The notes under the pieces were generated by a model. It was not told the DNA's origin. It was given only the letters and a program-made list of their open reading frames with translations, and did no database searches. The translations under genes were made by a program, and so were the position numbers. A stretch of 64,000 nt of DNA, from NCBI RefSeq assembly GCF_030294945.1, contig NZ_AP018448.1:6230001-6294000 (forward strand), read 5' to 3'. Of the stretch, positions 1 to 31,796 are shown one piece after another (position 1 is the first letter of the stretch; each line of letters begins with the position of its first letter). The stretch is from Streptomyces graminofaciens (lineage in GTDB: Bacteria > Actinomycetota > Actinomycetes > Streptomycetales > Streptomycetaceae).

Positions 1-276
1 TATGCACACCGGACGTCGGAGGTGGCTGCGGGCTAGCGCCCGTCACCACACTCAGTGCGGTGCCGGACCCGCGTGCGATCTGCGTGCGCAGCCGGCCCAA
101 TCTCAAGCAGTCACCCGACCCGCGGGCTCGCCGGTACGTCCGGCCGGCTCCCTCGTCGTTCAGACGAGGGGACCAGAGCCTGCGGGTCGTCTGCGTTTCC
201 TGGGGCCTGTGACAGGGTTTCCCCTAGGAATCCTCAGTCTGTGATGCGAGGCACTTTCGGAATCTCGGGAACGCAG
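1..276. other. Upstream non-coding stretch
   Basis: No convincing gene is seen here. An 8-bp hairpin (CCCTCGTC, loop GTTCA, GACGAGGG) lies at 150-170 and may be a terminator of a gene outside the window or part of a longer leader. The one long reading frame running through it into the oxygenase has no Streptomyces-like codon bias. Confidence 0.4.
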
Positions 277-4780: not shown

Positions 4781-5917
4781 TCAGTACGACTTCGGCAGGC
4801 CCAGGGTCTGGTGGGAGACGTAGTTGAGGATCATCTCCCGGCTCACCGGGGCGATACGTGACACTCGGGCGGCCGTGATCAGTGAGGCGAGGCCGAACTC
4901 CTTGGTGAGGCCGTTGCCGCCGAGGGTCTGCACGGCCTGGTCGACGGCCCGTACGCAGGCCTCCCCCGCCGCGTACTTCGCCATGTTGGCGGCCTCGCCC
5001 GCGCCGGCGTCGTCGCCCGTGTCGTAGAGGTGGGCCGCCTTCTGCATCATCAGGCGGGCCAGTTCGAGTTCGATGTGGGACTGGGCGAGGGGGTGGGCGA
5101 TGGCCTGGTGGGCGCCGATGGGGCTGTTCCAGACCGTGCGGTCGCGGGCGTATTCGACGGCCTTGGAGATCGCGTACCGGCCCATGCCGATCGCGAACGC
5201 CGCCGTCATGATCCGCTCGGGGTTGAGGCCGGCGAAGAGCTGGAGGAGGCCGGCGTTCTCGTCTCCGACCAGGGCGTCGGCGGGGAGGCGTACGTCGTCG
5301 AGGGTGAGCTCGAACTGCTTCTCGGCGGCGTTGAGTTCCATGTCGATCTGGCGGCGCTCGAAGCCGGGGGTGTCGCGGGGGACGATGAAGAGGCAGGGCT
5401 TCAGGGAGCCGGTGCGGGCGTCCTCCGTGCGACCGACTATGAGGGTGGCGTCGGCGATGTCCACGCCGGAGATGAAGACCTTGCGGCCGTTGAGGATCCA
5501 GTCGCCCGTCTCGTCCTTGCGGGCGGTCGTGGTGATGCGGTGGCTGTTGGAGCCGGCGTCGGGTTCGGTGATTCCGAAGGCCATGATGCGGGTGCCGTCG
5601 GCGAGGGCGGGGAGCCAGTGTTGTTTCTGGGCGTCCGTGCCGAAGCGGGCGATGATCGTGCCGCAGATCGCCGGGGAGACGACCAGCATGAGGAGGGGGC
5701 AGCCCGCGGCGCCGAGTTCTTCGAGGACGATCGAGAGTTCGCTCACGCCTCCGCCGCCGCCTCCGTAGGCCTCGGGGAGATTGACGCCCAGGTAGCCGAG
5801 TTTCCCTGCCTCGGTCCAGAGTTCGGGGGTGGTGAAGTCTCGGCCGTGGCGTTTGCCGAGGGTGGAGACGGCGGTTCGTAGGGCTTTCTGTTCTTCGGAT
5901 TCGATCGTGGGTGGCAT
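4781..5917 (-). CDS. Acyl-CoA dehydrogenase (isovaleryl/citronellyl-CoA type)
   Basis: 378 aa, complete acyl-CoA dehydrogenase: N-terminal helical domain, a beta domain with the FAD signature AFGITEPDAGSNSHR, and a C-terminal helical domain ending in IAPVSREMILNYVSHQTLGL. FAD-linked alpha,beta-desaturation of an acyl-CoA, passing electrons to ETF. Located between the biotin-carboxylase subunit and the hydratase, it fits the AtuD/LiuA step that precedes carboxylation. The chain length used cannot be told from sequence. ATG at 5917 has GGAAGGAAT-like purines just upstream. Confidence 0.9.
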   Translation of the reverse strand: MPPTIESEEQKALRTAVSTLGKRHGRDFTTPELWTEAGKLGYLGVNLPEAYGGGGGGVSELSIVLEELGAAGCPLLMLVVSPAICGTIIARFGTDAQKQHWLPALADGTRIMAFGITEPDAGSNSHRITTTARKDETGDWILNGRKVFISGVDIADATLIVGRTEDARTGSLKPCLFIVPRDTPGFERRQIDMELNAAEKQFELTLDDVRLPADALVGDENAGLLQLFAGLNPERIMTAAFAIGMGRYAISKAVEYARDRTVWNSPIGAHQAIAHPLAQSHIELELARLMMQKAAHLYDTGDDAGAGEAANMAKYAAGEACVRAVDQAVQTLGGNGLTKEFGLASLITAARVSRIAPVSREMILNYVSHQTLGLPKSY

Positions 5918-5953
5918 GGGATTCCTTCCGGCTGCGGTTTCGTCGTGGTGTCT

Positions 5954-5974
5954 CGCGCAGTTCCCCGCGCCCCT
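5954..5974. repeat. Dispersed intergenic element, truncated copy
   Basis: CGCGCAGTTCCCCGCGCCCC is the reverse complement of the core of the element seen at 41811, 42608, 55781, 62590 and 63761. It fills most of the 55-bp gap between the dehydrogenase start and the carboxylase alpha-subunit stop. Confidence 0.5.
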
Positions 5975-7820
5975 AACCCGGCTGCACCACCGCGAGCAAC
6001 ATGCCCAGCTCCACCTGCTGGCCGGGTACTGCGTTCAGGGTCGTCAAGGTGCCCGTTGCCGGGGCCGTGATCCGGTGTTCCATCTTCATTGCCTCCAGCC
6101 AGAGGAGGGGGTCGCCCGCCTTTACCTCGGACCCTTCCGTGAGGCCCTCCGCCACTCGTACGACCGTGCCGGGCATCGGGGCCAGGAGGGAGCCCGGGAG
6201 CTGTTGGGTCGTGGGGTCCGGGAAGCGGGGCAGGGCGGTGAGGGGGGTGGTGTTGACGTAGATCTGGTCGCCGTACCGTGCCACCTCGAACTTTTGCTGG
6301 ACGCCGTCCACTTCGAGGAGGACGAGGCCGGGTGCGGCTCGTACGACCCGGACTCCTTCCGCCGTCAGGCCCTCGCGGGTGTGGTGGTAGGTGACCTCGA
6401 TCTCCTCGCCCCCCGTGGCGTAGCGCTTGCTCTGGGGGTGGGCCGGCAGGTTGCGCCAGCCGCCGAAGCGGGAGCGGCCGTGGGCGTCGGCGAGGGCGGC
6501 GGCCAGGGGTGCGTACGGGTCGGGGGCCGGGGCCGTGAGGGCGTCGAGGTGGCGGTCGTAGAAGCCCGTGTCCATGGCCGCCGACGTGAACTCCTGGTGT
6601 CGGAGTGAGCGGACGAGGAGGTCTCTGTTGGTCGTCGGGCCATGGATCGTCGTGTGGTCCAGGGCGCCCGCGAGGCGGCGGATCGCCTCGGCTCGGGTGG
6701 GGGCGTGGGCGATGAGTTTGGCGAGCATCGGGTCGTAGTGGACGCCGATCTCGTCGCCGTCCGTGTAGCCGGTGTCCAGGCGGGTGCCGGGTGGGGCGGT
6801 CAGGCGGTGGAGGGTGCCTGTCTGGGGGGTCCAGTCCTGTGCGGGGTCCTCGGCGTAGAGGCGGGCCTCGATGGCGTGGCCACGCGCGCGCGGGGGGCCG
6901 TCGGGGTCCAGGGCGTGGCCTTCGGCGACGCTGAGCTGGAGGGCGACCAGGTCGATGGCGTGGATCGCTTCCGTCACCGGGTGTTCGACCTGGAGGCGGG
7001 TGTTCATCTCCAGGAAGTGGGCGCGGTCGTCGTCGGCGATCAGGAACTCGACCGTTCCGGCGCCCACGTAGTCGACGGCTCTCGCCGCCCGTACCGCCAT
7101 CTCGTACAAGGAGTGGGTCAGTTCGGGATTCAGACCCGGTGCGGGTGCCTCCTCGATGACCTTCTGGTGGCGGCGTTGGAGGGAGCAGTCGCGGGTGCCG
7201 AGGGTCCAGACGGTGCCGTGGGTGTCGGCGAGGATCTGGACCTCTACATGGCGGCCGCCCTCGATGTAGGGCTCGACGAAGACCTCGCCGTCGCCGAAGG
7301 CGCTCGTGGCTTCGGCTCGGGCGGCGGTCAGGGCGGGGTCCAGGTCCGCGAGGTGGCGTACGACGCGCATGCCGCGGCCGCCGCCGCCCGCCGCCGCCTT
7401 GACCAGGACGGGTAGGTCCGCCTCGGTAACCGCTTTAAGGGGTTTCAAGCCCATCAGGTGCTTGGCGCGGGGCTTGGACGCCATCGTCTCGATCGCCTCG
7501 GGGGGCGGGCCGATCCAGACCAGGCCCGCGTCGAGGACGGCACGGGCGAAGTCGGCGTTCTCGGAGAGGAAGCCGTAGCCGGGGTGGACGGCGTCGGCGC
7601 CGGCGGTGAGGGCCGCCTTCACGATCAGGTCGCCGCGCAGGTACGTGTCGGCGGGGGCCGCGCCCGGGAGTCGTACCGTCGCGTCGGCCACGCGCGCGTG
7701 GAGGGCGTTTTCGTCGGCGTCGGAGTGCACGGCGACCGTTTGGATTCCCAGCTCACGGCAGGTGCGGAAGATCCGGCAGGCGATCTCGCCCCGGTTGGCC
7801 ACGAGGAGTCTCGAAATCAT
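5973..7820 (-). CDS. Acyl-CoA carboxylase alpha subunit (biotin carboxylase + BCCP)
   Basis: 615 aa. An N-terminal biotin carboxylase (VANRGEIACRIFRTCRELGI, then KAAAGGGGRGMRVV) carboxylates biotin with ATP and bicarbonate; a C-terminal biotinyl domain carries EAMKMEH with the biotinylated Lys near residue 579. It pairs with the beta subunit just upstream (8-bp gap), as in methylcrotonyl- or geranyl-CoA carboxylase. Odd feature: the stretch after K116 (about residues 121-132, HLMGLKPLKAVT) is shorter than I expect for the family, and its codons (TTG AAA CCC CTT AAA GCG GTT) are AT-rich for this genome. ATG at 7820 matches the invariant family start. Confidence 0.92.
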   Translation of the reverse strand: MISRLLVANRGEIACRIFRTCRELGIQTVAVHSDADENALHARVADATVRLPGAAPADTYLRGDLIVKAALTAGADAVHPGYGFLSENADFARAVLDAGLVWIGPPPEAIETMASKPRAKHLMGLKPLKAVTEADLPVLVKAAAGGGGRGMRVVRHLADLDPALTAARAEATSAFGDGEVFVEPYIEGGRHVEVQILADTHGTVWTLGTRDCSLQRRHQKVIEEAPAPGLNPELTHSLYEMAVRAARAVDYVGAGTVEFLIADDDRAHFLEMNTRLQVEHPVTEAIHAIDLVALQLSVAEGHALDPDGPPRARGHAIEARLYAEDPAQDWTPQTGTLHRLTAPPGTRLDTGYTDGDEIGVHYDPMLAKLIAHAPTRAEAIRRLAGALDHTTIHGPTTNRDLLVRSLRHQEFTSAAMDTGFYDRHLDALTAPAPDPYAPLAAALADAHGRSRFGGWRNLPAHPQSKRYATGGEEIEVTYHHTREGLTAEGVRVVRAAPGLVLLEVDGVQQKFEVARYGDQIYVNTTPLTALPRFPDPTTQQLPGSLLAPMPGTVVRVAEGLTEGSEVKAGDPLLWLEAMKMEHRITAPATGTLTTLNAVPGQQVELGMLLAVVQPG

Positions 7821-15931: not shown

Positions 15932-18900
15932 ATGGCCTACGAGGGCCGGCGCGACGGCGATGTGTACAACTCCTTCCACGGGAACGCAGACATCGTCGTC
16001 CAGTTTCGCGACAACTACGGCGAGATCCACATAGATCGCCCACCGGCGGCCGCGCCGCTGGAACGGGCCGCCGACGCCCTGGCCGAGGCGGTGTACCGGC
16101 AGTGGCGTGGTGAGGCAAGGGTCTGGGGCGTGGGTGGCGACCGGGTGCCGTTGGCGGTGCGCTGGGCGCCCCGGTCCCGGCGGGCCGACCATCCCCGGAA
16201 CGTGGGCGGACAGGTCGCGGGGCAGGGCGATCAACTGGACGGTCTGCTCGCCTCGTTCCTCGGTCTGCCGATCAGCCGTCTCGCGATCCTGGGCGAGGCC
16301 GGCTCGGGCAAGACCACCCTCGCCGTACTGCTGACGCTCGAACTGCTCAGCCGTCGGCTGGCGGCGGGGGCGGCAGGCAGGGGGGCCGGTGCGCACCGGG
16401 GTGCCCCGCCCGTGCCCGTGCTGTTCTCCCTCTCCTCCTGGGACCCCGACCGCGAGGAGTTCGGGGTCTGGATCACCCGGCGGCTCGCGGAGGATCACCC
16501 CGGGCTGCCCCGGATCGACGGGCGGCACCCGGCGCGGGAGTTGTGGCGCGACAGCGGTTCCCCGCTGCTGCCCGTGCTCGACGGGCTGGACGAGATGCCG
16601 GCCCATCGGCGTCACGCGGCGGTGGTCGCGATCAACTCTGCGCTGTACGACCGGCCGCTGATCCTCACCTCACGGACTGCGGAGTTCGACGCGCTCGCCC
16701 CGGCGGAGCTGGTGCTCCGCTCGACGGCCGTCATCGAGGGGCAGCCGGTCACCGCCGAGGACGCCGCCACGCACCTGGAGTTGAGTACGGCACCCGACGC
16801 GGAGGGGCAGGGGCGCTGGTCAGGGCTCTTACGGCGGGTTCGGGAGGACCCGTACGGGCCGGTGGCGGCCGCGCTGTCGACACCGCTGATGCTGTCGCTG
16901 GCCCGCACGGTCTACGCCCGGCGCTGGACCGATCCGGGCGAGCTGGCGGACAACGCCCGTTTCCCTGACCGGAGTTCGGTCGAGGAGCGGCTGCTCGACG
17001 AGTTCGTACCCGCGGTGTTCTCCGGGGAGATAGCCCCGCTCGACCGGGAGAATCCGCCGCGCCGCTGGTCGCCGCGGAGCGCCCGGCGCAGGCTGGGCGT
17101 CCTCGCCAGGCACCTCCAGCGGCAGGACACCACCGAGCTGGCCTGGTGGCGGCTGCACCTCTTATCCCTGCCCCGGTTGATGATCCTGCCCGCCATCATC
17201 CTGCTGGGGCTCGCGGTCTCGGAGGTGGCACGGGCGCTCGGCGAAGCGGTCACCGGGCCCCTGTCCACCGGCGACATGGACCAGCAACTGACCAGGCTGG
17301 TCGGCGAGCGCCTCGACTCCCCCGCCTACGGCGGCGCGCCCCCCGGCGGTTTCGGCCCGGCCCGCACGGCGGCCACGTCCGGGCTGGTCACCGGTCTGGT
17401 GTTCGGTACGGGTATTCAGGTCATGCTCCGCACCTGGTTCGCGCATTACCGCTTCGGCGAACCACGACGCCGGGCGAGCCTGCTGCGGCCGGGCGCGGCG
17501 GCCCGGTCCGCGCTGCACGCCACCTCCCCGCTCCGCGCCGTGATGGCGGTCCTGCTGATCCTCGTCCTCCCCGGCATCTCCGTGGTGCACGCCACCCTGT
17601 ACTACAACGGCGTCACCGGCATGGACGCGGCGCTGTCCCTGAGCTTCGGGTGCCTCACCGCCGCGTTCGTCTTCACCGTGCTGTTCGCCGCGCCGGCCGA
17701 CACCGAGCGGGACACGACCACACCCCGGGCGCTGATGCGTGCCGAACACATCGCACTGGCACGGTCGTTCGGCATCGTCGGCCCGCTGGTCGGCGTCGGG
17801 ACCGGCGCGAGGTTCTGGCCGTACGATCCCGTTGAAGGTGTCGCCGCCGGGCTCACGGCATGGATCGGTACGACGACGATGCTGGTGGTGATCAGCCCCT
17901 GGAGCCGCTGGGCCCTCGCCAAGGTCACCCTGGCCGTGACCGGTCAGGCCCCGTGGTCGCTGCTGCGGTTCCTGGAGGACGCCCGCCGCCAGGGCGTCCT
18001 GCGCCAGGTCGGCGGCAGCTATCAGTTCCGCAACGCCCGGCTCCAGGAACGCCTCGCCGAGGGCACCGCGCGCGGCGGCACCCGGCAGGCAGACGTACGC
18101 CGTGGTGCCCCGCCCCGCCTGCCCAACCCCTGGCTGCTCCGGCTGGACGGTGTCACGCCCACGGCGGACGCGGGGTGGAGCTTCCGGCTGCGCGTACGCC
18201 AGGTCACCCTCGCCCCGCTGAAGGCGGCACCCGCGGCGGCGGGCCTGTGGACACTCCAGGTCGCGGCCCGCGACGGCGTCGAGTCCCTGCCCTACCTCTG
18301 GGCCCCCGCCGTCCTCTTCCTCGGCGTCGGAGCCTTCATGTCGGGCCTCACCTGGCTCCTGCCCCGGCACACGGTGCGGGTGTGGGTGTCCCCGTACGCC
18401 GTCGCCTGCCACCGGCAGCGCCGCGAGTTCCGCTTCGACTGGCCCCACGTCGAGGAGGTCGCCGTCCGCCGCACCCGCCGCCTGGGCATGGACACCGGCC
18501 TCTACGGCATCCACGTACGCCTGCACCCCGACGCCCCGCGCGGCTCCCGGCTGCTGAGGAGCGACGGCAACTGGTACGTCCTCACCGACATCGGCCTGCG
18601 GCCCGTCCTGCCGCCCGGGCTGGAGGCGGCGCTCAGCGACTACGCCGGGGTGCGGTGGCGGCCACCGCACCAATCGGCCGTTCCGGTGGGCGCGGGTGGA
18701 GGCACGGGTGCGGTTCCCACGCCGGTGCCATCGCCGCCTCCACCCCCGCCGGTGCCTGTGCCATCGCCGCCCCCACCCCCACCCCCACCCCCGCCGGTGC
18801 CGGTGCCTGTGCCTGTGCCGGTGCCATCGCAGCCCCCTCCCCCGCCCGTCCCCCGCCAACCGCTCCTCATGCACGACCCCCGGTCCTGGTCGGGGCCGTC

Positions 18901-19828
18901 GGTCCCGCACAAGCAGGCGGACGACGGGACGGCGGCGGACGACGGCGGTCACTGGTTCATCGGCGTGCTGGGATGCGCCGCCGTGTTGGCGGCGACGCTC
19001 CCGGTCGTCGTACGGGCATGGCTGTCGACATCCGGCGACACCGGCTCCGTCGTGCCCGTCTGGGCCCCGGTCGTCGCGCTCGTCGGCCATCTGTTCCTCG
19101 CCGGTTACGGCACCGACCCCGCGACCGGCAGGCTGCCCGCCCCGGCAAGGGTGCTGCGACTGGTCGCCGCGGCGGCGTCGACGGCCACGGTCGTCGCCGT
19201 GACCGTCCCGGCCCGCGCCCTCGGCTGGATCGACCTCGCCCAGCTCACTGTCCTCTGCCTGGGCGTGCTCGTCTGCGCGGGCGACGGGGAGAGCGGAAAG
19301 GCCGGTGCGGCCGACGAGGAGGGCGGCTCCGCGTCCTGGTGGACGGAGCCGGTCACCGGCATCGCCCTCGTCTGCGCCGGCCTGGCCATCCCTCCCGCCG
19401 CGGCCTCCTCCACGACGGCGGTGGCGGCTCTCGCCCACCTGGTGGCCGCCGCTGCCGTCTTCGTCGGCAGCGGCGCCGTCTACCCCCTCAAGGCCCCCGA
19501 CCCCCGCCGCATCCCACCCGGCCCGTCCCGCTCCGGCCTGCTCTGGAACCGTCTGGCCCTGCCCGTCGCCCTGCTGCTCGGCGGCGGTTACACGGTCCTG
19601 TACGGCGGCACGGTCGGCTGCTGGCTCCTCGGCGCCGAAGCCGTGGTACTGCTCCTGGTGGCGTTCATGACGGACTCCCCGGCCACACCGGACGCGCAGG
19701 ACCCACAGGACCCACAGGACCCACAGGACCCACAGGAGACACCAGAGACACCAGACACACCTGAGCCGACCGACGCGACGCAGGACCCCTCGGCCACCTC
19801 GCCGAGCCCCCGGACCGACGAAGCCTGA
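15932..19828 (+). CDS. Membrane NACHT NTPase with N-terminal amyloid-signalling-like motif
   Basis: 1298 aa. Residues 11-34 (VYNSFHGNADIVVQFRDNYG, then EIHI) resemble the N-x-hydrophobic-G...VVQ...G-hydrophobic RHIM/PP-type motif found before bacterial NLR-like NTPases. A NACHT NTPase follows: Walker A GEAGSGKTT (121-129), Walker B LLPVLDGLDEM (212-222), sensor LTSR. A multi-helix membrane region spans about 405-660, then a PH-like beta segment (about 750-900), a Pro-rich repeat linker (about 925-985) and further C-terminal helices, ending in QDP repeats. Two TTA codons (16829-16831, 17162-17164) suggest bldA-dependent translation. It begins a rightward block with conservon genes. Ligand and output are unknown. 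Confidence 0.8.
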   Translation: MAYEGRRDGDVYNSFHGNADIVVQFRDNYGEIHIDRPPAAAPLERAADALAEAVYRQWRGEARVWGVGGDRVPLAVRWAPRSRRADHPRNVGGQVAGQGDQLDGLLASFLGLPISRLAILGEAGSGKTTLAVLLTLELLSRRLAAGAAGRGAGAHRGAPPVPVLFSLSSWDPDREEFGVWITRRLAEDHPGLPRIDGRHPARELWRDSGSPLLPVLDGLDEMPAHRRHAAVVAINSALYDRPLILTSRTAEFDALAPAELVLRSTAVIEGQPVTAEDAATHLELSTAPDAEGQGRWSGLLRRVREDPYGPVAAALSTPLMLSLARTVYARRWTDPGELADNARFPDRSSVEERLLDEFVPAVFSGEIAPLDRENPPRRWSPRSARRRLGVLARHLQRQDTTELAWWRLHLLSLPRLMILPAIILLGLAVSEVARALGEAVTGPLSTGDMDQQLTRLVGERLDSPAYGGAPPGGFGPARTAATSGLVTGLVFGTGIQVMLRTWFAHYRFGEPRRRASLLRPGAAARSALHATSPLRAVMAVLLILVLPGISVVHATLYYNGVTGMDAALSLSFGCLTAAFVFTVLFAAPADTERDTTTPRALMRAEHIALARSFGIVGPLVGVGTGARFWPYDPVEGVAAGLTAWIGTTTMLVVISPWSRWALAKVTLAVTGQAPWSLLRFLEDARRQGVLRQVGGSYQFRNARLQERLAEGTARGGTRQADVRRGAPPRLPNPWLLRLDGVTPTADAGWSFRLRVRQVTLAPLKAAPAAAGLWTLQVAARDGVESLPYLWAPAVLFLGVGAFMSGLTWLLPRHTVRVWVSPYAVACHRQRREFRFDWPHVEEVAVRRTRRLGMDTGLYGIHVRLHPDAPRGSRLLRSDGNWYVLTDIGLRPVLPPGLEAALSDYAGVRWRPPHQSAVPVGAGGGTGAVPTPVPSPPPPPPVPVPSPPPPPPPPPPVPVPVPVPVPSQPPPPPVPRQPLLMHDPRSWSGPSVPHKQADDGTAADDGGHWFIGVLGCAAVLAATLPVVVRAWLSTSGDTGSVVPVWAPVVALVGHLFLAGYGTDPATGRLPAPARVLRLVAAAASTATVVAVTVPARALGWIDLAQLTVLCLGVLVCAGDGESGKAGAADEEGGSASWWTEPVTGIALVCAGLAIPPAAASSTTAVAALAHLVAAAAVFVGSGAVYPLKAPDPRRIPPGPSRSGLLWNRLALPVALLLGGGYTVLYGGTVGCWLLGAEAVVLLLVAFMTDSPATPDAQDPQDPQDPQDPQETPETPDTPEPTDATQDPSATSPSPRTDEA
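18725..18850 (+). repeat. Pro-rich repeat in the NACHT gene
   Basis: CCGCCTCCACCCCC and GGTGCCTGTGCC units alternate and encode PPPPPPVPVP-type linkers. In-frame expansion or contraction would alter the spacing between the PH-like part and the last membrane helices. Confidence 0.7.
19696..19764 (+). repeat. 9-bp tandem repeat at the 3' end of the NACHT gene
   Basis: CAGGACCCA is repeated about five times, encoding QDPQDPQDP, then grades into CACCAGAGA-type units encoding ETPETPDTP. The unit is a multiple of three, so copy changes keep frame. Confidence 0.8.
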
Positions 19829-20139
19829 GCCCCTGCCCCCGCTGCCGCCCCCGCCCCGCCCCCGCCCCCGCCCCCGCCGCATGCCGCCAACCCGGCTTCC
19901 GCTCATCCGGAACGTCGGCGGCACGATCACATACAGCCCGGCCCGGGGCGTCACTGCCCGCATCCCGGACGCCTCCTGGGAACGCGACCGCATACCGACC
20001 ACATGCCCATCGAATGCCGTGCGGATTGCGAGGACACCCTCGGAAAGGTGCCCGAGCCAATCGCTAACTCCCATATAGTGACGGCCAATTGAGCACCAAG
20101 TGTCGCTTCTCGATCAGGAACCGACCGAGGACAATATCC
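19829..20139 (+). promoter_or_regulatory. Intergenic region with cvn-operon promoter
   Basis: 311 bp without a gene. It begins with a C-rich CCGCCCC run (19835-19880). TATAGT at 20074-20079 is a good -10 candidate 60 bp before cvnA; no clear -35 is visible. Nothing else is recognised. Confidence 0.4.
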
Positions 20140-22302
20140 ATGACCCCGCCCGCGCCCAGTCCCCCAGGCGAACGACCGACCCTCCGCAGCATCCTGCCTC
20201 TCCCCCTGGTCACCGCCCTGCTCGGCGCGGTCGCGGTGGGCACCGCCGTCGCCCTGGCACCGCGCTCGGTACGGCTGCCCCTGGCCTGCGGCGCGGGCGC
20301 CGCCGCCTTTCTGCTCACCCTCGCCGTCGCGTTCGCCGTCCACGCCCGCCGCTCGGCGGGGCTGCTGCGCCACCGGTTGAACGCCGTCTCCCGTGACACC
20401 GGTCTGCTGCTCCAGGAACGGGCGCGGCTGGCCGAGGACTTCGGACAGGAACGGGGGCGGCTGACCGAGGAGTTCGTGCGCGAACGGGCCCGGCTCGCGG
20501 AGGAGTACGCACGTGAACGGGCGCGACTCGCCAAAGAGTTCGAGCGCGAGCGCGGCCGCACGGCCGACGAGCGGACCCGCTGGGACGAGGCCCGCTCGCA
20601 CCTCGCCGAACGCGCCCGCCGCGCCGAGTCCGACCGCACCGCCGCCCTCGCCGTGACCGCCAACGTGGCCGGCCGGATGCAGGCCCTGGCCACCGGCACG
20701 CTCGCCGATCTACGCGCGATGGAGGAACGTCACGCCGACGAGGACGTCCTCGCCGACCTGCTCCATCTCGACCACCGCACCGCGCAGGCCGGCCGTCTCG
20801 CCGACTCCGTCGCCGTCCTCGCGGGCGCCCGCTCGGGCCGCCGCTGGGCGCGCCCCATCCCGATGGAGTCGATCCTGCGCGGCGCGATGGGCCGCATCGG
20901 CGCCTACCGCCGGGTCCGGCTGCACTCCTCCAGCGACTCCGCCGTCGCCGGGCACGCCGCAGAGGGCGTGATGCACGCGCTCGCCGAACTCCTCGACAAC
21001 GCGGCCAACTTCTCGCCGCCGACCGCCGAGGTGCACGTGTACGTGGAGGAGGTACCGGCCGGTGTCATCGTCTCCGTCGAGGACGCGGGCCTGGTCATGA
21101 GCGACGTCCAGCTGCGCCGCGCCGAGCGCGCGGTGTCGGGCGAGGCCTCCGACCTCACCAGCCTGACCGGCACCCGCCTCGGCCTCGCCGTCGTCGGCCG
21201 CCTGGCCCGCAAGTACGGCCTGACGGTCTCCTTCCGCCCGTCCGCCCGCGGCGGCACGGGTGTGTTGATGCTGATCCCCCAGGACGTCCTGGCCAGTACG
21301 GCACCTCCGGCCACCCCCGCACCGGCCGCGCCCACGCCCGCGGCCCCCACGTCCGACGGCCTGTCGTACGCGGCCCTCTCCGGCTCGCTTCCCGGCCCCG
21401 GCCCCGGCCCACAGGACCCGCGCCCCGAACCGACGCCGACACACGAGTCCCCGTCGTCCACCTGGGAGTCCGCGGGCTCCGGGGGCTTTGCGGGCTCCGC
21501 GGGCTCCGGGGGCTCTGCGGGCTCCGGGGACCACGGCGACTCCGGGGACCCCGGGTCCGGCGAGTACCCCGGCCTCCCCCGGCGCCGCCGCGGCCGCTCC
21601 CTCGCGGAGGCGGAGGCCCGCACCCGTGCCCAGGCCGACGCCGACACCGGGTCCGGCGCCAGGAGGGCAGACGACGGCGACGACCGGGACGACACCGGCG
21701 CCCAGGCGGCCGCCCGCTTCAGCAGCTTCCGCCGCGCGGTCCGCGGCACGGGCGGACTCGACCAGGCGTTCGTCCAGGGGACGGCGACGGAAGCGGACAC
21801 CGTCGAGGAGACCGAGGGCATCAAGGCGGTCGAGACGGTCGAGGCCGTCGCCGCGTTCGAGGACGAGGAGGTCGTCGACGTACGACCGCCGGTACCGCTC
21901 CCCGCCCCGGAGCCGCCCGCCGTTCAGGAGCCCGCGTACTACTCCCTCGACGCCGCCTCCGGCATCCCCGTCGTCGACGCCGTCGTACTCGAACCCGTGC
22001 GGGACCTCCGTGAGTCCCTGCCCGAGGCCGTACGAGAGCTGCTGCGGGAAGCCGTACGGGACCCAAAGCCCGAACCGCACCCCGCCCCGCACCCCGAACC
22101 GCACCCCGAACCACACCCCGATCCGTACCTTTCAGCGGAACCGCAGCCCGCATCCCGCCTCGAACCGCACTCCGAACCGCACTCCGAACCGCACGCCGAA
22201 CCGGACGAGACCCAGCCCGCCCCCGCCTACGACCCGTACAGCCCGTACACCTCCTACTCCACGTACCCGCAACCGCACCCGGAAGGCGGCCCCACCCCAT
22301 GA
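20140..22302 (+). CDS. cvnA: Conservon sensor histidine kinase-like protein (CvnA type)
   Basis: 720 aa. Two N-terminal helices (about 18-40, 48-69) anchor it in the membrane. A cytoplasmic coiled coil is built from five 11-residue units (93-147, ERARLAEDFGQ type). Then a HisKA-like segment (LLHLDHRTAQAGRLADSVAV) and a HATPase_c domain with N-box LLDNAANFSPP, G1 VEDAG and GTRLGLAVVGRLARKYGL. The tail is long and Pro/Glu/His-rich (EPHPEPHP repeats at about 645-690). CvnA proteins are thought to form a membrane complex with CvnB-D. ATG at 20140 has GAGGA upstream; cvnB overlaps its stop by four bases. Confidence 0.88.
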   Translation: MTPPAPSPPGERPTLRSILPLPLVTALLGAVAVGTAVALAPRSVRLPLACGAGAAAFLLTLAVAFAVHARRSAGLLRHRLNAVSRDTGLLLQERARLAEDFGQERGRLTEEFVRERARLAEEYARERARLAKEFERERGRTADERTRWDEARSHLAERARRAESDRTAALAVTANVAGRMQALATGTLADLRAMEERHADEDVLADLLHLDHRTAQAGRLADSVAVLAGARSGRRWARPIPMESILRGAMGRIGAYRRVRLHSSSDSAVAGHAAEGVMHALAELLDNAANFSPPTAEVHVYVEEVPAGVIVSVEDAGLVMSDVQLRRAERAVSGEASDLTSLTGTRLGLAVVGRLARKYGLTVSFRPSARGGTGVLMLIPQDVLASTAPPATPAPAAPTPAAPTSDGLSYAALSGSLPGPGPGPQDPRPEPTPTHESPSSTWESAGSGGFAGSAGSGGSAGSGDHGDSGDPGSGEYPGLPRRRRGRSLAEAEARTRAQADADTGSGARRADDGDDRDDTGAQAAARFSSFRRAVRGTGGLDQAFVQGTATEADTVEETEGIKAVETVEAVAAFEDEEVVDVRPPVPLPAPEPPAVQEPAYYSLDAASGIPVVDAVVLEPVRDLRESLPEAVRELLREAVRDPKPEPHPAPHPEPHPEPHPDPYLSAEPQPASRLEPHSEPHSEPHAEPDETQPAPAYDPYSPYTSYSTYPQPHPEGGPTP
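20416..20580 (+). repeat. Five 33-bp units encoding a hendecad coiled coil
   Basis: Residues 93-103, 104-114, 115-125, 126-136 and 137-147 are variants of ERARLAEEFxR. The 11-residue period predicts a right-handed or straight coiled coil between membrane and kinase domain. Confidence 0.8.
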
Positions 22303-22712
22303 CCGGCACCGGCACCACCGCCGACGACAGGCTCACCTGGCTCATGGAAGGGCTTCTGGAACGCACCCCGGGTGCCCGGCACGCGCTCGTGCTCTCCCGG
22401 GACGGGCTGAAACTGTGCCGTACGCCGGAGCTGTCGATCGACCGGGCCGACCAGCTCGCCGCGATCGCCGCCGGCATCCAGTCGCTGTCCCACGGGGCGT
22501 CGGTGGAGTTCGGCGACGGCAGCGGCGGGGTGCGCTCGGCGATCGCGGAGTTCTACGGCGGGGTGCTGTTCATCGTGGAGGCGGGCGAGGGCGCGCATCT
22601 GGCCGTCGTCACGGACGAGGAAGCGGACGCCGGGCTGGTCGGACACAACATGGGCGAGCTGGTCGAACAACTCGGTGAACACCTGAGCGCTCGGCCACGT
22701 ACGACGTCATGA
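22299..22712 (+). CDS. cvnB: Roadblock/LC7-domain protein (CvnB type)
   Basis: 137 aa, one Roadblock/LC7 domain (LTWLMEGLLERTPGARHALV, then LSRDGLKLCRTPELSIDRAD). These proteins are regulators of small Ras-like GTPases such as MglA, and in conservons the normal partner is CvnD. That partner is missing here. Start overlaps the cvnA stop (ATGA) and the stop overlaps cvnC in the same way, so the genes are translationally coupled. Confidence 0.9.
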   Translation: MTGTGTTADDRLTWLMEGLLERTPGARHALVLSRDGLKLCRTPELSIDRADQLAAIAAGIQSLSHGASVEFGDGSGGVRSAIAEFYGGVLFIVEAGEGAHLAVVTDEEADAGLVGHNMGELVEQLGEHLSARPRTTS

Positions 22713-23056
22713 GCCGCCCCGGCAGGGACGACGCGCCCGACCGGCTGTACACCCTCACGGGAGGGCGCATCCGGTCCGCGCCCGGGACCCCGTTCGACCT
22801 GGTGACACTCGTCGTCGCCGAGGTCGGTCCGGTGCCGGGGATGCAGTCGGAGCACGCGACGATCCTGCGGCTCGCCAAGCGGCCGACGGCGGTGGTGGAG
22901 ATCGCCGCCGAGCTGCGGCTGCCGGTGAGCATCACGAAGGTCCTGCTCTCCGACCTCCTGGCCGCGGGCCGCGTCAGCGCCCGGCATCCGCGCCGGGCCA
23001 CGCTGATCGACCTAGACATTCTGGAGCAGGTACTAGTTGGACTCCGCAACCTCTGA
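22709..23056 (+). CDS. cvnC: DUF742 protein (CvnC type)
   Basis: 115 aa DUF742 with the conserved RLYTLTGGRIRSAPGTPFDL opening and a winged-helix-like centre (ILRLAKRPTAVVEIAAELRL, then PVSITKVLLSDLLAAGRV). It may bind DNA or bridge CvnB and the GTPase; the function is not established. The last codons (ILEQVLVGLRNL) overlap the next start by 20 bases, exactly where cvnD would normally begin. Confidence 0.9.
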   Translation: MSRPGRDDAPDRLYTLTGGRIRSAPGTPFDLVTLVVAEVGPVPGMQSEHATILRLAKRPTAVVEIAAELRLPVSITKVLLSDLLAAGRVSARHPRRATLIDLDILEQVLVGLRNL

Positions 23057-24365
23057 GAACGACGGGCCCGGGTGGACGGCCGGGGACGACTGGGTCATCG
23101 AGCCACCCGGTCCCATGCCCGGTCCCATGCCCGACCCGACGCCCGACCCGATGCCCGCCCCCATCCCCGTCATCGGCGCCCGCTTCCAGGGCGAACCCGC
23201 CACCCTCTACCGGGAGTTGCGGCGCGAGCACGGCGATGTCGTACCCGTGCTGCTGGACGGGGGCGTACCGGCGTGGCTGGTGCTCGGCTATCGCGAGCTG
23301 CATCAGGTGACCAGCGACCCGGTGCTGTTCAGCCGGGACTCGGAGCTGTGGAACCAGTGGGCGAACATCCCGCCCGACTGGCCGCTGCTGCCGGTGATCA
23401 GCCGGGAGCAGCCGTCGATCCTGGGCACGGTCGGCGAACGGCACCGCGAGCGGGCGACGATGGTCGGGGACGCGCTGGAGGCCGTCGATCCGCTGGCGTT
23501 GCGCGGTCATGTCGAGCGGTTCGCCGACGAGTTGATCGACGCGGTGTGCGAGACGGGCCGGGCGGACCTGGTGACGCAGTACGCGGCGCTGCTGCCGGTG
23601 CGCGTGCTGGCGTTCCTCTTCGGTTTCCCGGAGGAGCAGGGTCCGGGGCTGGTCGCCGCCATGAACGACATTCTCGACGGGCACGAGCGGGCGATGGCCG
23701 GCGAGGCCCATCTGACGTCTTCGATGGCCCGGTTGGTGGACGAGCGCCGCCACCGCCCCGCCGACGACGTGGTGTCCCGTGTCCTCGCCAACCCCTACGG
23801 CTTCACGGTCGAGGAGGTCACCCACGACGTGATGGTCATGCTGGCGGCCGGGCACCAGCCGACGGCCGACTGGATCGGCAACTCGCTGCGGCTGATGCTG
23901 ACGGACGAGCGGTTCGCGGCCTCGCTGTTCGGGGGACGCAGCAGTGTGGCGGAGGCCATGAACGAGGTCCTGTGGGAGGACGCGCCCATCCAGAACGCGG
24001 CCGGCCGCTGGACCACCCGCGACACCGGCCTCGGCGGCCGTCGCCTGCGCGCCGGCGACCTCGTCCTGCTCGGCCTCCAGGGCGCCAACTCCGACCCCCG
24101 GGTCCGTACCCCCGGCGCCGCGCTCACCGGCGGCAACAACGCCCACTTCTCCTTCGGCCACGGCGAACACCGCTGCCCGTTCCCGGCCCAGGAGGTCGCC
24201 GAGGTCATCGCCCGGACCGGCATCGAGGTCGTACTGGACCGCCTGCCGGACATCGACCTGGCCGTCCCCGCGGAGCAGTTGAGGCGCCGCGCTTCGCCGT
24301 GGCTGCGGGGGTTGGTGGGGTTGCCGGTGCGGTTCGAGCCTACGGCGGCTGTCGGGCGGGGGTGA
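23037..24365 (+). CDS. Cytochrome P450, CYP157-like, lacking EXXR
   Basis: 442 aa from a TTG at 23037 (ATG at 23115 is an alternative). The heme-binding motif is FGHGEHRCPF with Cys380; the I-helix reads MVMLAAGHQPTADW. The K-helix EXXR motif reads E310-V-L-W, so the normally invariant Arg is Trp, as described for the CYP157 family (EQSLW in S. coelicolor). CYP157 genes are often attached to conservons. The N-terminus has a Pro-Met-rich repeat (PGPMPGPMPDPTPDPMPAP) without family similarity, and the first residues (MDSATSEN) overlap cvnC, which would fit fusion to a deleted cvnD start. Substrate and redox partner unknown. Confidence 0.9.
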   Translation: MDSATSENDGPGWTAGDDWVIEPPGPMPGPMPDPTPDPMPAPIPVIGARFQGEPATLYRELRREHGDVVPVLLDGGVPAWLVLGYRELHQVTSDPVLFSRDSELWNQWANIPPDWPLLPVISREQPSILGTVGERHRERATMVGDALEAVDPLALRGHVERFADELIDAVCETGRADLVTQYAALLPVRVLAFLFGFPEEQGPGLVAAMNDILDGHERAMAGEAHLTSSMARLVDERRHRPADDVVSRVLANPYGFTVEEVTHDVMVMLAAGHQPTADWIGNSLRLMLTDERFAASLFGGRSSVAEAMNEVLWEDAPIQNAAGRWTTRDTGLGGRRLRAGDLVLLGLQGANSDPRVRTPGAALTGGNNAHFSFGHGEHRCPFPAQEVAEVIARTGIEVVLDRLPDIDLAVPAEQLRRRASPWLRGLVGLPVRFEPTAAVGRG

Positions 24366-24411
24366 GCCGCCGAGTCGCGGGGTCGGGCGAGGGCTGGTAG
24401 TTCTGGAAGTC

Positions 24412-27400
24412 ATGGGGTACGAACTCCAGCGGCGCAAGGTCAGGATCGTCACGGGCCCGCCGGCAGCGGGGCCTCTGCGAGAACTGGGGGCTCACGCCCG
24501 GCGCCCGTTCGTGGCCGTTTTCTGGCGGCTGCGCACCCGGTGGCTGCTCCAGCGGGGCGTGACGCATGCGAGGCGGTGGTGGAATCCGCCGGGGACGACG
24601 TTGTTGGTGACGGTTGTGTCGCTGCTGACGCTGGCGCTCGTCGCCTGGGTGGTCGCCGGGGTGGTGGGCCTCTTCGCGAAGAATACGAAGTACAGCCCGG
24701 ACGCGGTGTGCGAGGGAAAGAGCGAGGCGTGCGGTGCCATCTCCGGCGTCCTGCTCCCCGTACTCGTCGTCGCCTTCTCCACCCTCCTGTTCCTGTCCTG
24801 GCGCCTGTGGCGGGTCCGCCGCTTCTGCACGTGCCGGGCGCGGAACGAGCCCGGCCGTCTGGTGCAGACCGCGGGCAGTCTCATGGACGAGGTGGTCGGA
24901 CGCGACCAGCTCTGCAACGCCATCATGTCGAACCTCGGTGACAAGAGCGTCCGACGGCCACATGTCGTCGTGGGCGGCGTGGGTGTCGGCAAGACCGCGC
25001 TGCTGGTCCGGCTGGCTCAGAAACTCGCGGCGGAGGGGGCCGTTCCGATCCCCGTGCGGCTGCGCGACGCCCAGGGCCGGGACTCGCTGGACTTCAGTGC
25101 GCTGGCGCTCGAACGCTTCCGCGAGATCGTGCAGTCGAAGGTGCAGTCCGAGGGCGAGATCGACAGGTTGTGGAAATGGCTGCGGCAGCGGGCCGACCGG
25201 ATCGTGGTCCTCGCGGACGGACTGGAGGAGGCGTTCTGCGAGGACGACATGAGGGGCCGGCGCGACAACCTGATCCGGGAGGGGATACGCCGGGCCGGTG
25301 AGGAAGGACTGCCGCTCGTGATCGCCTCCCGGCCGCACGACCCGCTGCGCGCGATGCAGGCGGCCGTGTCGGAGCTGGAGCCGCTGAGCAACGAGGCGGC
25401 GCTGCGCTACATCGCCGGCAGCGGCAGCTGGCGCTCCGATCCGACGCTGCTCGACCGGATCGTGGAGGCCACCGACATGCCGGAGTCCCCGATCTATCTG
25501 AAGATCGCCAAGGATCTGCACAGCAAGGACCTGCTGGAACCCCTGTGGACCGGCGACAACCCGGATCTCCGGCTCCACGACAGCTGGAAGCTACGGGTGG
25601 AACTGCTGGAAACCTGGATCCGCGCGCTGGCCGACGGGGACGTCCACCCCGAACTCCCCATCGCCCACGACACGAGGCTGGCGGTCGTCGAGTACATCTC
25701 CGCGCTGGCGTGTATCGGCCTGGCCTCGGACAGCGCCGACGTCGGCCTCGGCGAACTCGACCCCTCCCTCGGCGAGTGGAACCGACGCGTCGGACAACGG
25801 CTGGACCAGCGGCTGGAGGAGCTGCGGTGGCGGCCGAAGGTGTACGCCCGGCAGCACGGCAGCGCGTCGCCCCGGCGAGGACGCCACTGCGAGGAGGCCC
25901 ACGGTGACGCCGACTGGTGGGTGGGCCCCCGGGTCGACGTCCGGATCGCCGCGACCTGGGGTACGCGGATGGGCCTGGTCCACGAGGACGGTGACAAGGT
26001 CCGCTTTCAGCACAGCATCGTGCAGGCGTATCTCGGCTCCCGCTTCCTCGACAAGATGTTCGAGCACTCGGAGATCGCCACTCTGCCGGACGAGGCCCAC
26101 CTCACCCGGGCGCTGCGCCGGGGCGGCCGCGAACTCCTCATCGCCCTCACGCTGTACTCCCGCACTCGGAAAGGGAGTTGCACCTGTGCCGACGGCTCGG
26201 CAGACGGCTCGGGGCCGCGCGCGCAGTGGTGCCCCGTCAACAGGATGTGCGCCCAGTTGCAGCAGCAGGCCAAGAAGCTGCTGGCCGAGGCGTACCGGGC
26301 ACGGCTGGTGTCCGAGCAGGCGCACCCGCACCCCGACGGCAACGGCAACGGCAACGGGCCCGACGACCGGGGCAGTCCACGGCTGAGAGCGATCGAGATC
26401 TACGGTGCCGCCGTGGAGATCGACAGCGTCGGGGCCGCACCGAGGCAGCACGCCCTGATCACGGAGATCGAGAAGGACTGGAACCGGCTCGGCCAGGACG
26501 AGGACCCCGCGCGGCTCCGCGAGGCGAAGCTCGCCCTGGTGAAGCAGTGCGGAACGGCGGTACGCCGCGTGGCCGCCGCCCGGAGCGTGGAACCGGGCGC
26601 CACGCACACGCCGTACCCGCCCTACGGCGTCCTGTTCCGGATCGGCCGCAAGGAGTCGGACCGCCGGGTGTGCGAGGCACTCGTCAAGGAGATCGGGGCG
26701 GGCGGCGAACCGGCGTACCGGGCACTGTGCGAGAAGCTCTCCGCGGCCTGTGTCTCGGTCGCGACCGGGCGGCAGTGCGGCAGCCGGAAGGCGAACCGGA
26801 AGGTCGCGCGGCAGTTGAAGCCCACACCCGATTCGGCGATCGAAGAGGCGTCCCCGACGGCGCACGAGGACGGCTGCGGGTCGGCGGCACGGAACCGGAC
26901 CGCCCCGCCGGGATGGGACGACCGCAGGTCCGCCGAGGAGGAGGCACTGGCGGAGAAGGGCAGATGGAACTGCAACGCCATGCGCGCCTGGCTCCTCCCC
27001 CTGCTCGTCGACTCCTCCCTGATGTCCCGTCACCTCGCCAGCCCCCACGACGACCTGGACAACTGGGTCAAGGTGGCGACCGGCGAGAACGCCGACGCCG
27101 ACATCCACGAGGACGGCCCCGGCGCCGCCATCGGCCTCGGGGTCGCGCTGGCCCGAGGGTTCAAGTACGCCGCCAACCGCCGGCCCGGCCCCGGGTCCGA
27201 CCGCAAGGCCCGCGAGTTCCTCGTCAAGCAGGCCCAGGAGCTGCTGAAGCACAGCACGTTCTGGTACACGCGGCTGACGCTGCTGCACGCGCTCACCTTG
27301 TGGAGCCTGCCCGACGACGTCAACGCGGACCAGCCGATCCGCGGCCACGGCGCGAACCCCAAGGGGCAGGTCAGGGAGTGGCTGTCGCTGGGCGGTGGCG

Positions 27401-28080
27401 GCCGGGACGGAGACCGGAAGGAGCATCCGCTGGTGGAGGCGGCCGCGAAGCTGGCGGTCCGCGCGCTGCAGACCCGGCGGCCCGAGCGGTTCCTGTGGAT
27501 CGACGAGGCGGCCCAGGCGGCCGGCATCGGCACCGAGGTCGGGCTCCCCGGGGAGCAGCGGGCCCACAACCTGTGGATACCGCCGTCCACCGGGTGGAGC
27601 ACCCTGGACCCCACGGCCCAGCAACTGCTGGCGGACGTACTGCTGCTGATGGTGCTCGGCGAGCGGTCGTACCGCCCGAAGGACGGATTCCGCCTACTGG
27701 AACTGTGTTCCCATGAGTCGGACCGGATGCCCTCCTGCGTACGCAAGGACCGCACCCGGCTGGCCCCCGTCCGAGGCGCGGAACGCACGTCGCAGCCCGG
27801 CTCCAACTGCACGGACGACTGCCGGCTGAAGATGTGCCCCTATCCGGCGAAGGCGGAGAACCTGCGGGCGGAGTTCAGCGAGGTCTTCTGTCTGCACCAG
27901 CGCGACCTGCTCAAGAAGTGGCAACCCTGGGCATGGGCGTCCCTGCGCTTCCGCCGCGAGGCCCCCTGGCAACGCAAGGTCCCCATCGCCGGCCTGCGCC
28001 GCTTCTGGGACCAGATGAGCGACCGCGCCCGCGACATGGACCCGGACGACACGGAGACCAGCCACGCGCACGTCTGCAGG

Positions 28081-28083
<3 letters not shown>
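24412..28083 (+). CDS. Membrane-anchored STAND/NACHT-like NTPase, Cys-rich
   Basis: 1223 aa. Two membrane helices (about 62-87 and 109-131) precede a cytoplasmic P-loop NTPase: Walker A GGVGVGKTAL (188-197), Walker B RIVVLADGLEE (263-273), RPHD sensor-like segment, and a winged-helix-like FQHSIVQAYLGSRFLDKM. The long C-terminal part is helical with no known repeat. Many cysteines are clustered: C139/C141 after the second helix, a CTC...C...C group near 585-620, and C1099, C1109, C1133, C1137, C1142, C1160 near the end. A metal or Fe-S site is conceivable. It starts 46 bp after the P450 gene, so it is likely co-transcribed. Effector unknown. Confidence 0.75.
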
Positions 28084-29480
<1,397 letters not shown>

Positions 29481-29603: not shown

Positions 29604-31796
29604 TCATGTCGTGCCCACGCGCGGAACCATGAAGTCCTCGCCGAACAGGGGCGGTGCGGGGAGCGCGTGCCGGGGGGGCGCAAGAGCCGGCCGCTCGCCG
29701 ATGCCGGCCGCGCCATGGGCGATGCCGTCGGGAAGCATGACCAGCGAGGTCGTACCGTCCTGCTCGTCCGAGGGATGTAGCTGGACGCGGATGCCGTGCC
29801 GTTCGGCCAGCCGGCCGACCACGAACAGACCCATGCGCTGCGAGACGGCGACGTCCACCGTCGGCGGGGCGGCCAGCTTGTGGTTGATGTCCACGAGGTC
29901 GTCGGGCGTCAGACCGATGCCCTTGTCGTGGATCTCGATCATCACGCGGCCGTCGGCCAGCCGGGCGGCGGTGACGCGGACCCTGGTCCGTGGCGAGGAG
30001 AAGGTGGTGGCGTTCTCCAGCAGTTCGGCGAGCAGGTGCACGAGGTCGGTCACGGCGCGGCCGTGGATGTCGCAGTCGGCGACATCGCTCATCTCGATGC
30101 GCTCGTACTGCTCCACCTCGGAGGTGGCGGCGCGCAGTACGTCGATGAGGGGGACGGGCTGGTCCCAGCGGCGGCCGGGTTCGTCGCCGGAGAGGACGAG
30201 GAGGTTCTCGCCGTTGCGGCGCATACGGGTCGCCAGGTGGTCCAGCTTGAAGAGGTTCTCCAGCTGGTCCGGGTCGGCCTCGTTGTTCTCCAGGTCGGTG
30301 ATCAGGGTCAGCTGGCCCTCGATCAGGGACTGGTTGCGGCGCGAGAGGTTGGTGAAGATCGCGTTGATGTTGCTCCGCAGCAGGGCCTGCTCGGCGGCGA
30401 GCCGGACGGCCTCGCGGTGGACCTGGTCGAAGGCGCGGGCGACCTCGCCGATCTCGTCGGTCGAGGTGATCGGGATGGGGGTGACCCGGGTGTCGACCCG
30501 GCCGGGGTCGGTGCGCGAGAGCTGCTCGACCAGCATCGGCAGCCGCTGGTCGGCGATGCCGAAGGCGGCGTTGCGCAGACGGCGCATCGAACGGCTCATC
30601 CGGCGGGCCATGATCCCGGCGATGATGAACGCGGCGAGCAGGGCCACGACGACGACCCCGCCGTTGACGAAGGCGTCACGCCGGGCCTCGGAGGCGACCT
30701 CGCCGGCGTCGTCCACGGCCCGGTCGATCAGCTCGGTCTCGACCTGGCTGTAGCCCTTGAACCGCAGGGTGGCGGCCGTCATCCAGGTCGCCGGTGTGAT
30801 GCCCTTCTCCGCCATGACGGCGGGCTCCTGGCCACCCCCGAGGGCTTCCTTCATCCGCTCCAGGGCGGGCGGCGCCACATGGCTGCGGCCCGCCTCCCGC
30901 GCCTTGTCCTTCTCCTCGGCGGCCAGCTCCTCACCTTCCGCCGTCATCTCCTCCATGACAGCGGCGAACCGGGCGGTGTCCTCCTCGGTCGCGCTGCGGA
31001 CGTACTCCCGGTAGGCGATGCCTTCCAGGTTGGCGTACGTCATGAAGGAACCGGCCTGCCCCGCCAGCGTCTGCGCGTCACCGCTGGGCTTGACCAGCAG
31101 ATGCACGCCGATCGCGCGCTGCATCGACTGCGCGCCCTTGGCCAGGGAGAGGGCGTACACCATACGGCCGTAGGACGAGGTGTTTCCCGTACCGAACCCC
31201 AGTTCGTTCGCGAACCCCGCGAGCTGTTGGCCCAACAGGAGGTAGGTCTCCTCGGTCTGTACCGGGTCCATGTCCCCGCCGAACGCCCGCGCGCGCACGG
31301 CCGCCAGCCGCGGTTCGACGTCGTCGACCTTCGCCAGCCGCCCCTCCAGGCCCAGGCCGGCCGGCATGTCGGTGACCGCCCGGCGGAAGTCGGCGGCCCG
31401 CCGATCCGTACGGGCACGGACCTTCTCGACCTCTGGACTGTCGCGCTCGCCCCGCAATAAGGGGGCCGCGGATAAATCGCGCTCGTCGAGGAGGGCTTCG
31501 TTGTAGGCGTCGGCGGCGGCGACGATCTCCGCGACCCGCTGCGCGTCCCTGGCCGCCCGCCAGGTGTCGACCGACCTCTTCACCTGGAGACCGCCCATCA
31601 CCAGGGCGACGAGAACCGGAAGGAGAAGGATGGCGTTCAGCCGAGTCGACACGTGCCAGTTGCGTGGATGCACGCGACTGTCGCCGTCGAGCGCGTGCCG
31701 GCCGGCCGGTTCGGGATGGTGAACCGGTACGACCGGCGCCGGTGCGGACTCCCCCCGCACCGGCATCGGCTCAGGACTCTCCTTGCTTCGCCTCAT
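29604..31796 (-). CDS. Nitrate/nitrite-sensor-type histidine kinase (orphan)
   Basis: 730 aa. TM helix 53-71, an extracellular NIT-type sensor region (about 75-370), a second TM (about 383-405, GGVVVVALLAAFIIAGIMAR), HAMP (TSTDEIGEVARAFDQVHREA), a dimerisation-like segment LFKLDHLATRMRRNGENLLV and HATPase_c (LLENATTFSSP; DKGIGL; GLFVVGRLAERHGI). It has the CvnA1-like plan but no cvnB-D genes beside it, and no response regulator adjacent. TTA codons encode L108 and L113, so translation may need bldA tRNA. ATG at 31796 gives the common MRRSKxSPEP start; upstream candidates exist. Confidence 0.85.
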   Translation of the reverse strand: MRRSKESPEPMPVRGESAPAPVVPVHHPEPAGRHALDGDSRVHPRNWHVSTRLNAILLLPVLVALVMGGLQVKRSVDTWRAARDAQRVAEIVAAADAYNEALLDERDLSAAPLLRGERDSPEVEKVRARTDRRAADFRRAVTDMPAGLGLEGRLAKVDDVEPRLAAVRARAFGGDMDPVQTEETYLLLGQQLAGFANELGFGTGNTSSYGRMVYALSLAKGAQSMQRAIGVHLLVKPSGDAQTLAGQAGSFMTYANLEGIAYREYVRSATEEDTARFAAVMEEMTAEGEELAAEEKDKAREAGRSHVAPPALERMKEALGGGQEPAVMAEKGITPATWMTAATLRFKGYSQVETELIDRAVDDAGEVASEARRDAFVNGGVVVVALLAAFIIAGIMARRMSRSMRRLRNAAFGIADQRLPMLVEQLSRTDPGRVDTRVTPIPITSTDEIGEVARAFDQVHREAVRLAAEQALLRSNINAIFTNLSRRNQSLIEGQLTLITDLENNEADPDQLENLFKLDHLATRMRRNGENLLVLSGDEPGRRWDQPVPLIDVLRAATSEVEQYERIEMSDVADCDIHGRAVTDLVHLLAELLENATTFSSPRTRVRVTAARLADGRVMIEIHDKGIGLTPDDLVDINHKLAAPPTVDVAVSQRMGLFVVGRLAERHGIRVQLHPSDEQDGTTSLVMLPDGIAHGAAGIGERPALAPPRHALPAPPLFGEDFMVPRVGTT

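Follow-up and report, generated by a model that had tools for sequence, protein, structure and literature searches.

A serC-linked conservon without its GTPase gene and a neighbouring NLR-like NTPase gene in Streptomyces graminofaciens

The block of genes considered here lies at positions 15932-28083 of a 64,000-nucleotide (nt) stretch of the Streptomyces graminofaciens chromosome (contig NZ_AP018448.1, positions 6,230,001 to 6,294,000; hereafter the window), which is part of a one-contig Streptomyces genome of 11.6 megabases. It contains the conservon genes cvnA, cvnB and cvnC and a cytochrome P450 gene, flanked on each side by a large gene for a NACHT-like protein, and had been put forward (in what we call the original prediction) as a single signalling system. 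We think it more probable that this is a serC-linked conservon missing its own CvnD GTPase gene and its second P450 gene, with an independently moving gene for an NLR-like NTPase (the STAND gene below) occupying the second-P450 slot. All genes of the block are on the + strand, and reading the frames together with profile matches confirmed the genes and coordinates first given for them. The features are as follows.

15932..19828, + strand: upstream polytopic NACHT-like protein (ATG 15932, stop 19828), judged to be outside the conservon unit
20140..22302, + strand: cvnA, membrane sensor-ATPase-like protein with two predicted membrane helices and without sensor domain (HATPase_c, 6.7e-12; hydropathy; invariant stretches)
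22299..22712, + strand: cvnB, roadblock/LC7 protein (Robl_LC7, 9.5e-23)
22709..23056, + strand: cvnC, DUF742 protein (DUF742, 6.1e-34)
23037..23060, + strand: cvnD scar: what is left of that gene, its start plus ~8 codons (LDSATSEN), continues in frame into the P450 gene; position and frame are those of the cvnD start in relatives, and it is common to 10 loci
23037..24365, + strand: CYP157-type P450 (cvnE); frame open from TTG 23037, with ATG 23127 as candidate original start
24373..24411, + strand: leader block preceding the STAND gene and likewise solitary relatives of it (leader comparison); possible promoter
24412..28083, + strand: putative membrane-anchored NACHT/STAND protein with an NLR-like model, apparently a separate gene in the second-P450 slot (NACHT profile, motifs, hydropathy, model)
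28285..28361 (approximate borders), + strand: conserved stretch 5' of serC, probable serC promoter (conservation)
28362..29480, + strand: serC, phosphoserine transaminase, right-hand landmark of the locus (TIGR01366, 1.1e-215 for frame 28137-29480)

Overlaps of 4 nt (cvnA/cvnB), 4 nt (cvnB/cvnC) and 20 nt (cvnC/P450 frame) bear out the coupled starts originally described for this part of the block, but not for the NACHT-like gene, which has an alternative open start (GTG 15902) and ends, uncoupled, 311 nt before cvnA. The STAND gene follows the P450 gene after 46 nt, a gap that is no proof of a single operon since its leader also precedes solitary relatives. As for the claim of two membrane STAND-type NTPases, hydropathy, the sole basis for membrane segments here and in CvnA, predicts such segments in both large proteins, while a NACHT match above cut-off is seen only for 24412-28083.

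The conservon core and its missing GTPase

Three of the four components expected of a conservon are present: a HATPase_c protein with predicted membrane helices, in which the stretches LDHRTAQ and ELLDNAA are invariant (8 orthologues aligned), a roadblock/LC7 protein adjoining it and a DUF742 protein adjoining the latter. The fourth, a Ras-like GTPase gene (cvnD) adjoining cvnC, is absent from the block, where an in-frame scar is found instead, and the block is therefore classed as conservon-derived rather than as a full conservon. In the P450, EVLW replaces the K-helix ExxR and the haem cysteine is retained in GHGEHRC, whereas the second P450 of one relative has ETLR. EVLW is reported for CYP157A in the excerpts available of PMC3599690, and it is by this motif, not by identity to a named CYP157, that the protein is assigned to the CYP157 type; it shares with that family the haem cysteine and conservon linkage as well, and differs in that its open frame begins where cvnD used to start. 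Excerpts of PMC8510531 and PMC13343842 describe conservons with a P450 (cvnE) or GAF-protein (cvnF) gene whose CvnA has no sensor domain. The window matches the cvnE kind in the order and domains of cvnA-cvnB-cvnC, in its sensor-domain-less CvnA and in its P450 accessory, but has neither cvnD nor a second P450 and carries a NACHT/STAND gene downstream. CvnABC with a P450 is thus of a known kind; conservon and NACHT were found together in no paper by our literature search, and titles and abstract openings contained nothing on GTPase-less conservons. Just past serC lies an orphan CvnA-like gene (29604-31652, - strand; NIT 4.8e-26, HATPase_c 2.7e-13, HAMP slightly under cut-off), which no cvnB, cvnC or cvnD adjoins.

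How often cvnD is missing was surveyed from the orthologous P450, which 136 of the 295 Streptomyces genomes sampled carry at E <= 1e-165; with one locus skipped (its contig begins at the P450) and four named loci added, this gave 139 distinct loci including the window, in which genes were called by a crude custom finder that leaves start sites uncertain. The usual order is cvnABCD-CYP157-second P450, with serC within reach downstream in 86 of the 139. Of the 137 loci where cvnC is visible, 124 have cvnD and 13 lack it. A tree of 29 loci places these 13 in three lineages: a clade of the window and nine relatives (support 1.0), G033 by itself, and G032 with its sister G133 (support 1.0). All ten loci of the window clade have the start of cvnD plus ~8 codons joined in frame to the P450 gene; elsewhere, what remains of cvnD is a 12-codon stub (G033) or stubs of 31 and 13 codons (G032 and G133, respectively). 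An in-frame deletion in the window clade thus linked the start of cvnD to the P450 gene, and the second P450 gene was deleted in the window lineage as well. Loss of the conservon GTPase, an element of the original prediction, is accordingly well founded.

Relocation of cvnD was considered and ruled out. The genome has 12 CvnC and 11 CvnD genes; these CvnD are 51-60% identical to the orthologue query (73-86% between the orthologues shown), and 10 of the 11 genes start within ~300 nt of a CvnC gene. Since all are too divergent and each is tied to a CvnC of its own, cvnD was lost, not moved. The eleventh lies 3.7 kilobases from its cvnC, in another conservon (L280 6583-11140; G000:C1:10446582-10451139) where a gene for 1,207 residues is inserted between cvnC and cvnD.

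The set that remains probably still works, as suggested by the absence of any sign of relaxed selection on CvnB, CvnC and the P450. Amino-acid change per 4-fold-site change in the CvnD-less clade versus CvnD-bearing loci is 0.255 versus 0.291 for CvnB, 0.511 versus 0.621 for CvnC and 0.436 versus 0.525 for the P450, a rough comparison because its pairs (22-38 versus 4,993-6,855) overlap and are unequally divergent. We infer that CYP157 would still act on CvnA and, in the simplest mechanism, that CvnB and CvnC would go on controlling the nucleotide state of a CvnD-type GTPase from one of the 11 other conservons, in line with the cross-talk between Cvn systems suggested in the available excerpts of PMC8510531.

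Two other accounts of this remnant deserve attention. CvnABC-CYP157 of the window clade might signal without any GTPase, its output being the CvnA ATPase and CvnC, which would fit both the ATPase activity of CvnA-type proteins themselves (PMC13343842, excerpts) and the recurrence of cvnD loss in three lineages; with 11 other CvnD in the genome and cross-talk suggested, however, we consider this rather unlikely. Decay of a functionless CvnD-less conservon, next to which the neighbouring genes are chance insertions, would account for the two gene losses of the clade and for other inserts at the site (as in L029). It is less likely still, since all four frames left in the window are open, the CvnA motifs are retained, the amino-acid change ratio is not raised and the fusion preserves the overlap with cvnC.

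The NLR-like gene and its history

The STAND protein (1,223 residues) matches the NACHT profile PF05729 with 41.9 bits (cut-off 26.7), has the motifs GGVGVGKTA and VVLADGLEEA, and is predicted to be anchored by two N-terminal membrane helices. Its predicted model resembles the NLR fold, and its C-terminal part, hardly covered by fold matches, is helical in the model with a conserved set of cysteines. On this modelling it is a membrane-anchored, NLR-like NACHT protein, related by fold to NLRP3, NLRC4 and NOD2, from which it differs by its membrane helices and its C-terminal helical part with conserved cysteines. Neither this protein nor the NACHT-like one (15932-19828) matched a described defence family in PADLOC (2023 library), a sequence search of the PDB returned weak AAA+ matches and nothing more, and we spotted no solved structure of a bacterial defence NACHT among the 50 fold matches listed, which carries no weight. 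The protein could be a sensor-effector switch separate from the conservon, probably in defence or self-recognition, that would assemble at the membrane on a cue.

That a membrane NLR-like NTPase gene stands directly 3' of CYP157 proved correct for the window and eight other genomes: STAND lies between CYP157 and serC in nine genomes; eight are cvnD-less, and Streptomyces sp. GQFP (L100) is the exception that has cvnD. STAND is absent from L068 and L069, two members of the window clade. Most of the family is found elsewhere. It occurs in 42 of the 295 sampled genomes, at the conservon site in 5 and away from it in 37, of which 10 have the orthologous P450 far away or on another contig and 27 lack it at threshold (neighbourhoods were inspected for 7 of the 37); a search of named genomes matched 112 loci, and among the 80 retained, 6 are at the conservon. 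Among the 86 serC-linked loci, which are related and therefore not independent counts, STAND is present in 0 of 66 with a second P450 and 9 of 20 without. In L029 the site holds another insert, an interval of 1,039 nt in which a frame is open.

The history of the gene appears to be its own. Between the sister loci L066 and L067, differences at 4-fold sites are 7-15% in five flanking genes versus 23% in STAND; between L066 and GQFP, they are 28-48% in the flanks versus 22% in STAND. In GQFP, the P450 gene is followed by 354 nt, 79 of which match the empty sites of the sister loci L212 and L204, and then by the STAND leader, STAND and a pre-serC stretch matching the window clade (81/84 identical to L109, versus about 64-66/79 to the sisters). 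The serC body, by contrast, is 1-9% different from the sisters versus 5-20% from L109, L066 and the window in six 120-nt windows (bases 241-960), the first two 120-nt windows being non-discriminating. The pairing of a window-clade-like pre-serC stretch with a sister-like serC body suggests that STAND moved with the stretch upstream of serC and without the conservon. These comparisons lead us to regard STAND as a separate gene, exchanged between strains, whose history is independent of the conservon. The 354-nt stretch itself (L100 9528-9881) is a very long inverted repeat, which, taken together with the final 20 nt of the P450 gene, folds strongly (-278 versus -177 kcal/mol for shuffled sequence).

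When the 46-nt leader in the window was compared with 1,663 upstream regions, five of the top six were STAND leaders, including those of solitary genes, and one (L173) was not; the remaining STAND leaders have background scores (25-26) or lie beyond the 240 nt searched, gene starts being crude. A pattern scan for the leader used too loose a pattern, and promoter and terminator scans gave 0 and 2 hits versus 0.2 and 2.0 in shuffles. Since no strong hairpin was found in the 46-nt gap of the window, read-through or co-transcription is possible, and expression of STAND may start from its own leader, result from conservon read-through, or combine the two. In L067, L070, L101, L102 and L103, the STAND frame crosses the conserved pre-serC stretch and its stop is ~10 nt ahead of the serC start, which may lead to interference between STAND and serC.

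The upstream NACHT-like gene

We judge, from its distribution, that the upstream NACHT-like gene is a third, separate part of the block. At 18.2 bits its NACHT match is weak and under the Pfam cut-off (26.7), although Walker-type motifs are visible in the family alignment. None of 24 relatives (20 plus L100, L101, L103 and L109) has the gene at this position; leaving aside L070, L078 and L084 (among the 20), whose upstream sequence is cut off by contig ends, the count is 0 of 21. What lies upstream of cvnA in relatives is a divergent FAD-oxidase/Fe-S gene (3 of 3 tested by Pfam). The family, searched with query residues 1-853, is present in 152 of 295 genomes, many matches covering the NACHT part only, and its seven inspected neighbourhoods are mutually different.

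The N-terminus of the protein (window 15932-16060) reads NSFHGNADIVVQFRDNYGEIHI, and relatives have NVMQGTAEYVLQIGHVHGNV and similar sequences, which we take to recall the RHIM/BASS3 amyloid signalling motifs. BASS3 is related to RHIM according to the excerpts available of PMC12261475. No partner with such an amyloid-like motif appeared in a six-frame scan of the window with a pattern that also missed the window's own degenerate copy. Elsewhere, an Rfam scan of the window gave a single match, Ms_IGR-5 (window 1-195, + strand; 45.3 bits, cut-off 45), clipped by the window edge.

One system or neighbours

A hybrid in which STAND replaced CvnD as the nucleotide switch, with CvnA and CYP157 sensing and CvnB/CvnC gating the NACHT protein, would mean that a bacterial G-protein-like sensory system had been rewired to an NLR. 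The position of STAND directly 3' of CYP157 in nine genomes, eight of them cvnD-less, the single group formed by the on-site STANDs and the narrow gap in the window all fit such a hybrid. Yet it is very improbable, because (i) L068 and L069 have neither cvnD nor STAND while L100 has both, (ii) the lineages G033 and G032/G133 lost cvnD and have no STAND at the site, (iii) STAND divergence is out of step with that of the conservon, the gene having been imported without the latter in L100, and (iv) a strongly folding stretch parts it there from the P450 gene. The broader proposal of one system made of NACHT, conservon, P450 and STAND lacks support, given the 0 of 21 relatives with NACHT here and a STAND gene that is elsewhere in 37 of 42 genomes, has a discordant history, is missing from L068 and L069 and coexists with CvnD in L100. 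The parts do occur alone in unrelated places, as the original prediction had said they would if it were wrong: NACHT does so and STAND mostly does.

Several points weigh against our preferred reading of a conservon stripped of CvnD and second P450 beside an independently moving gene: on-site STAND proteins form their own group (support 0.913), the gap between P450 and STAND is short and free of a strong hairpin in the window, and the limitation of STAND to loci without second P450 (9/20 versus 0/66) could exceed mere free space. Moreover, other folds, mainly AAA+, come less than 2 Z units behind NLRs in the fold search, and the selection test is built on overlapping pairs of unequal divergence.

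Bacterial G-protein systems of this type are normally taken to have CvnD at their core, and in S. coelicolor it is the best conserved conservon component (PMC8510531, excerpts). The retention of CvnABC-CYP157, with no sign of relaxed selection, after its clean and repeated loss makes it possible to test whether conservons share GTPases and what role CvnB and CvnC have without one. The same site also displays an NLR-like gene being swapped among Streptomyces strains, together with its leader and the pre-serC stretch, into a slot that usually holds a second P450.

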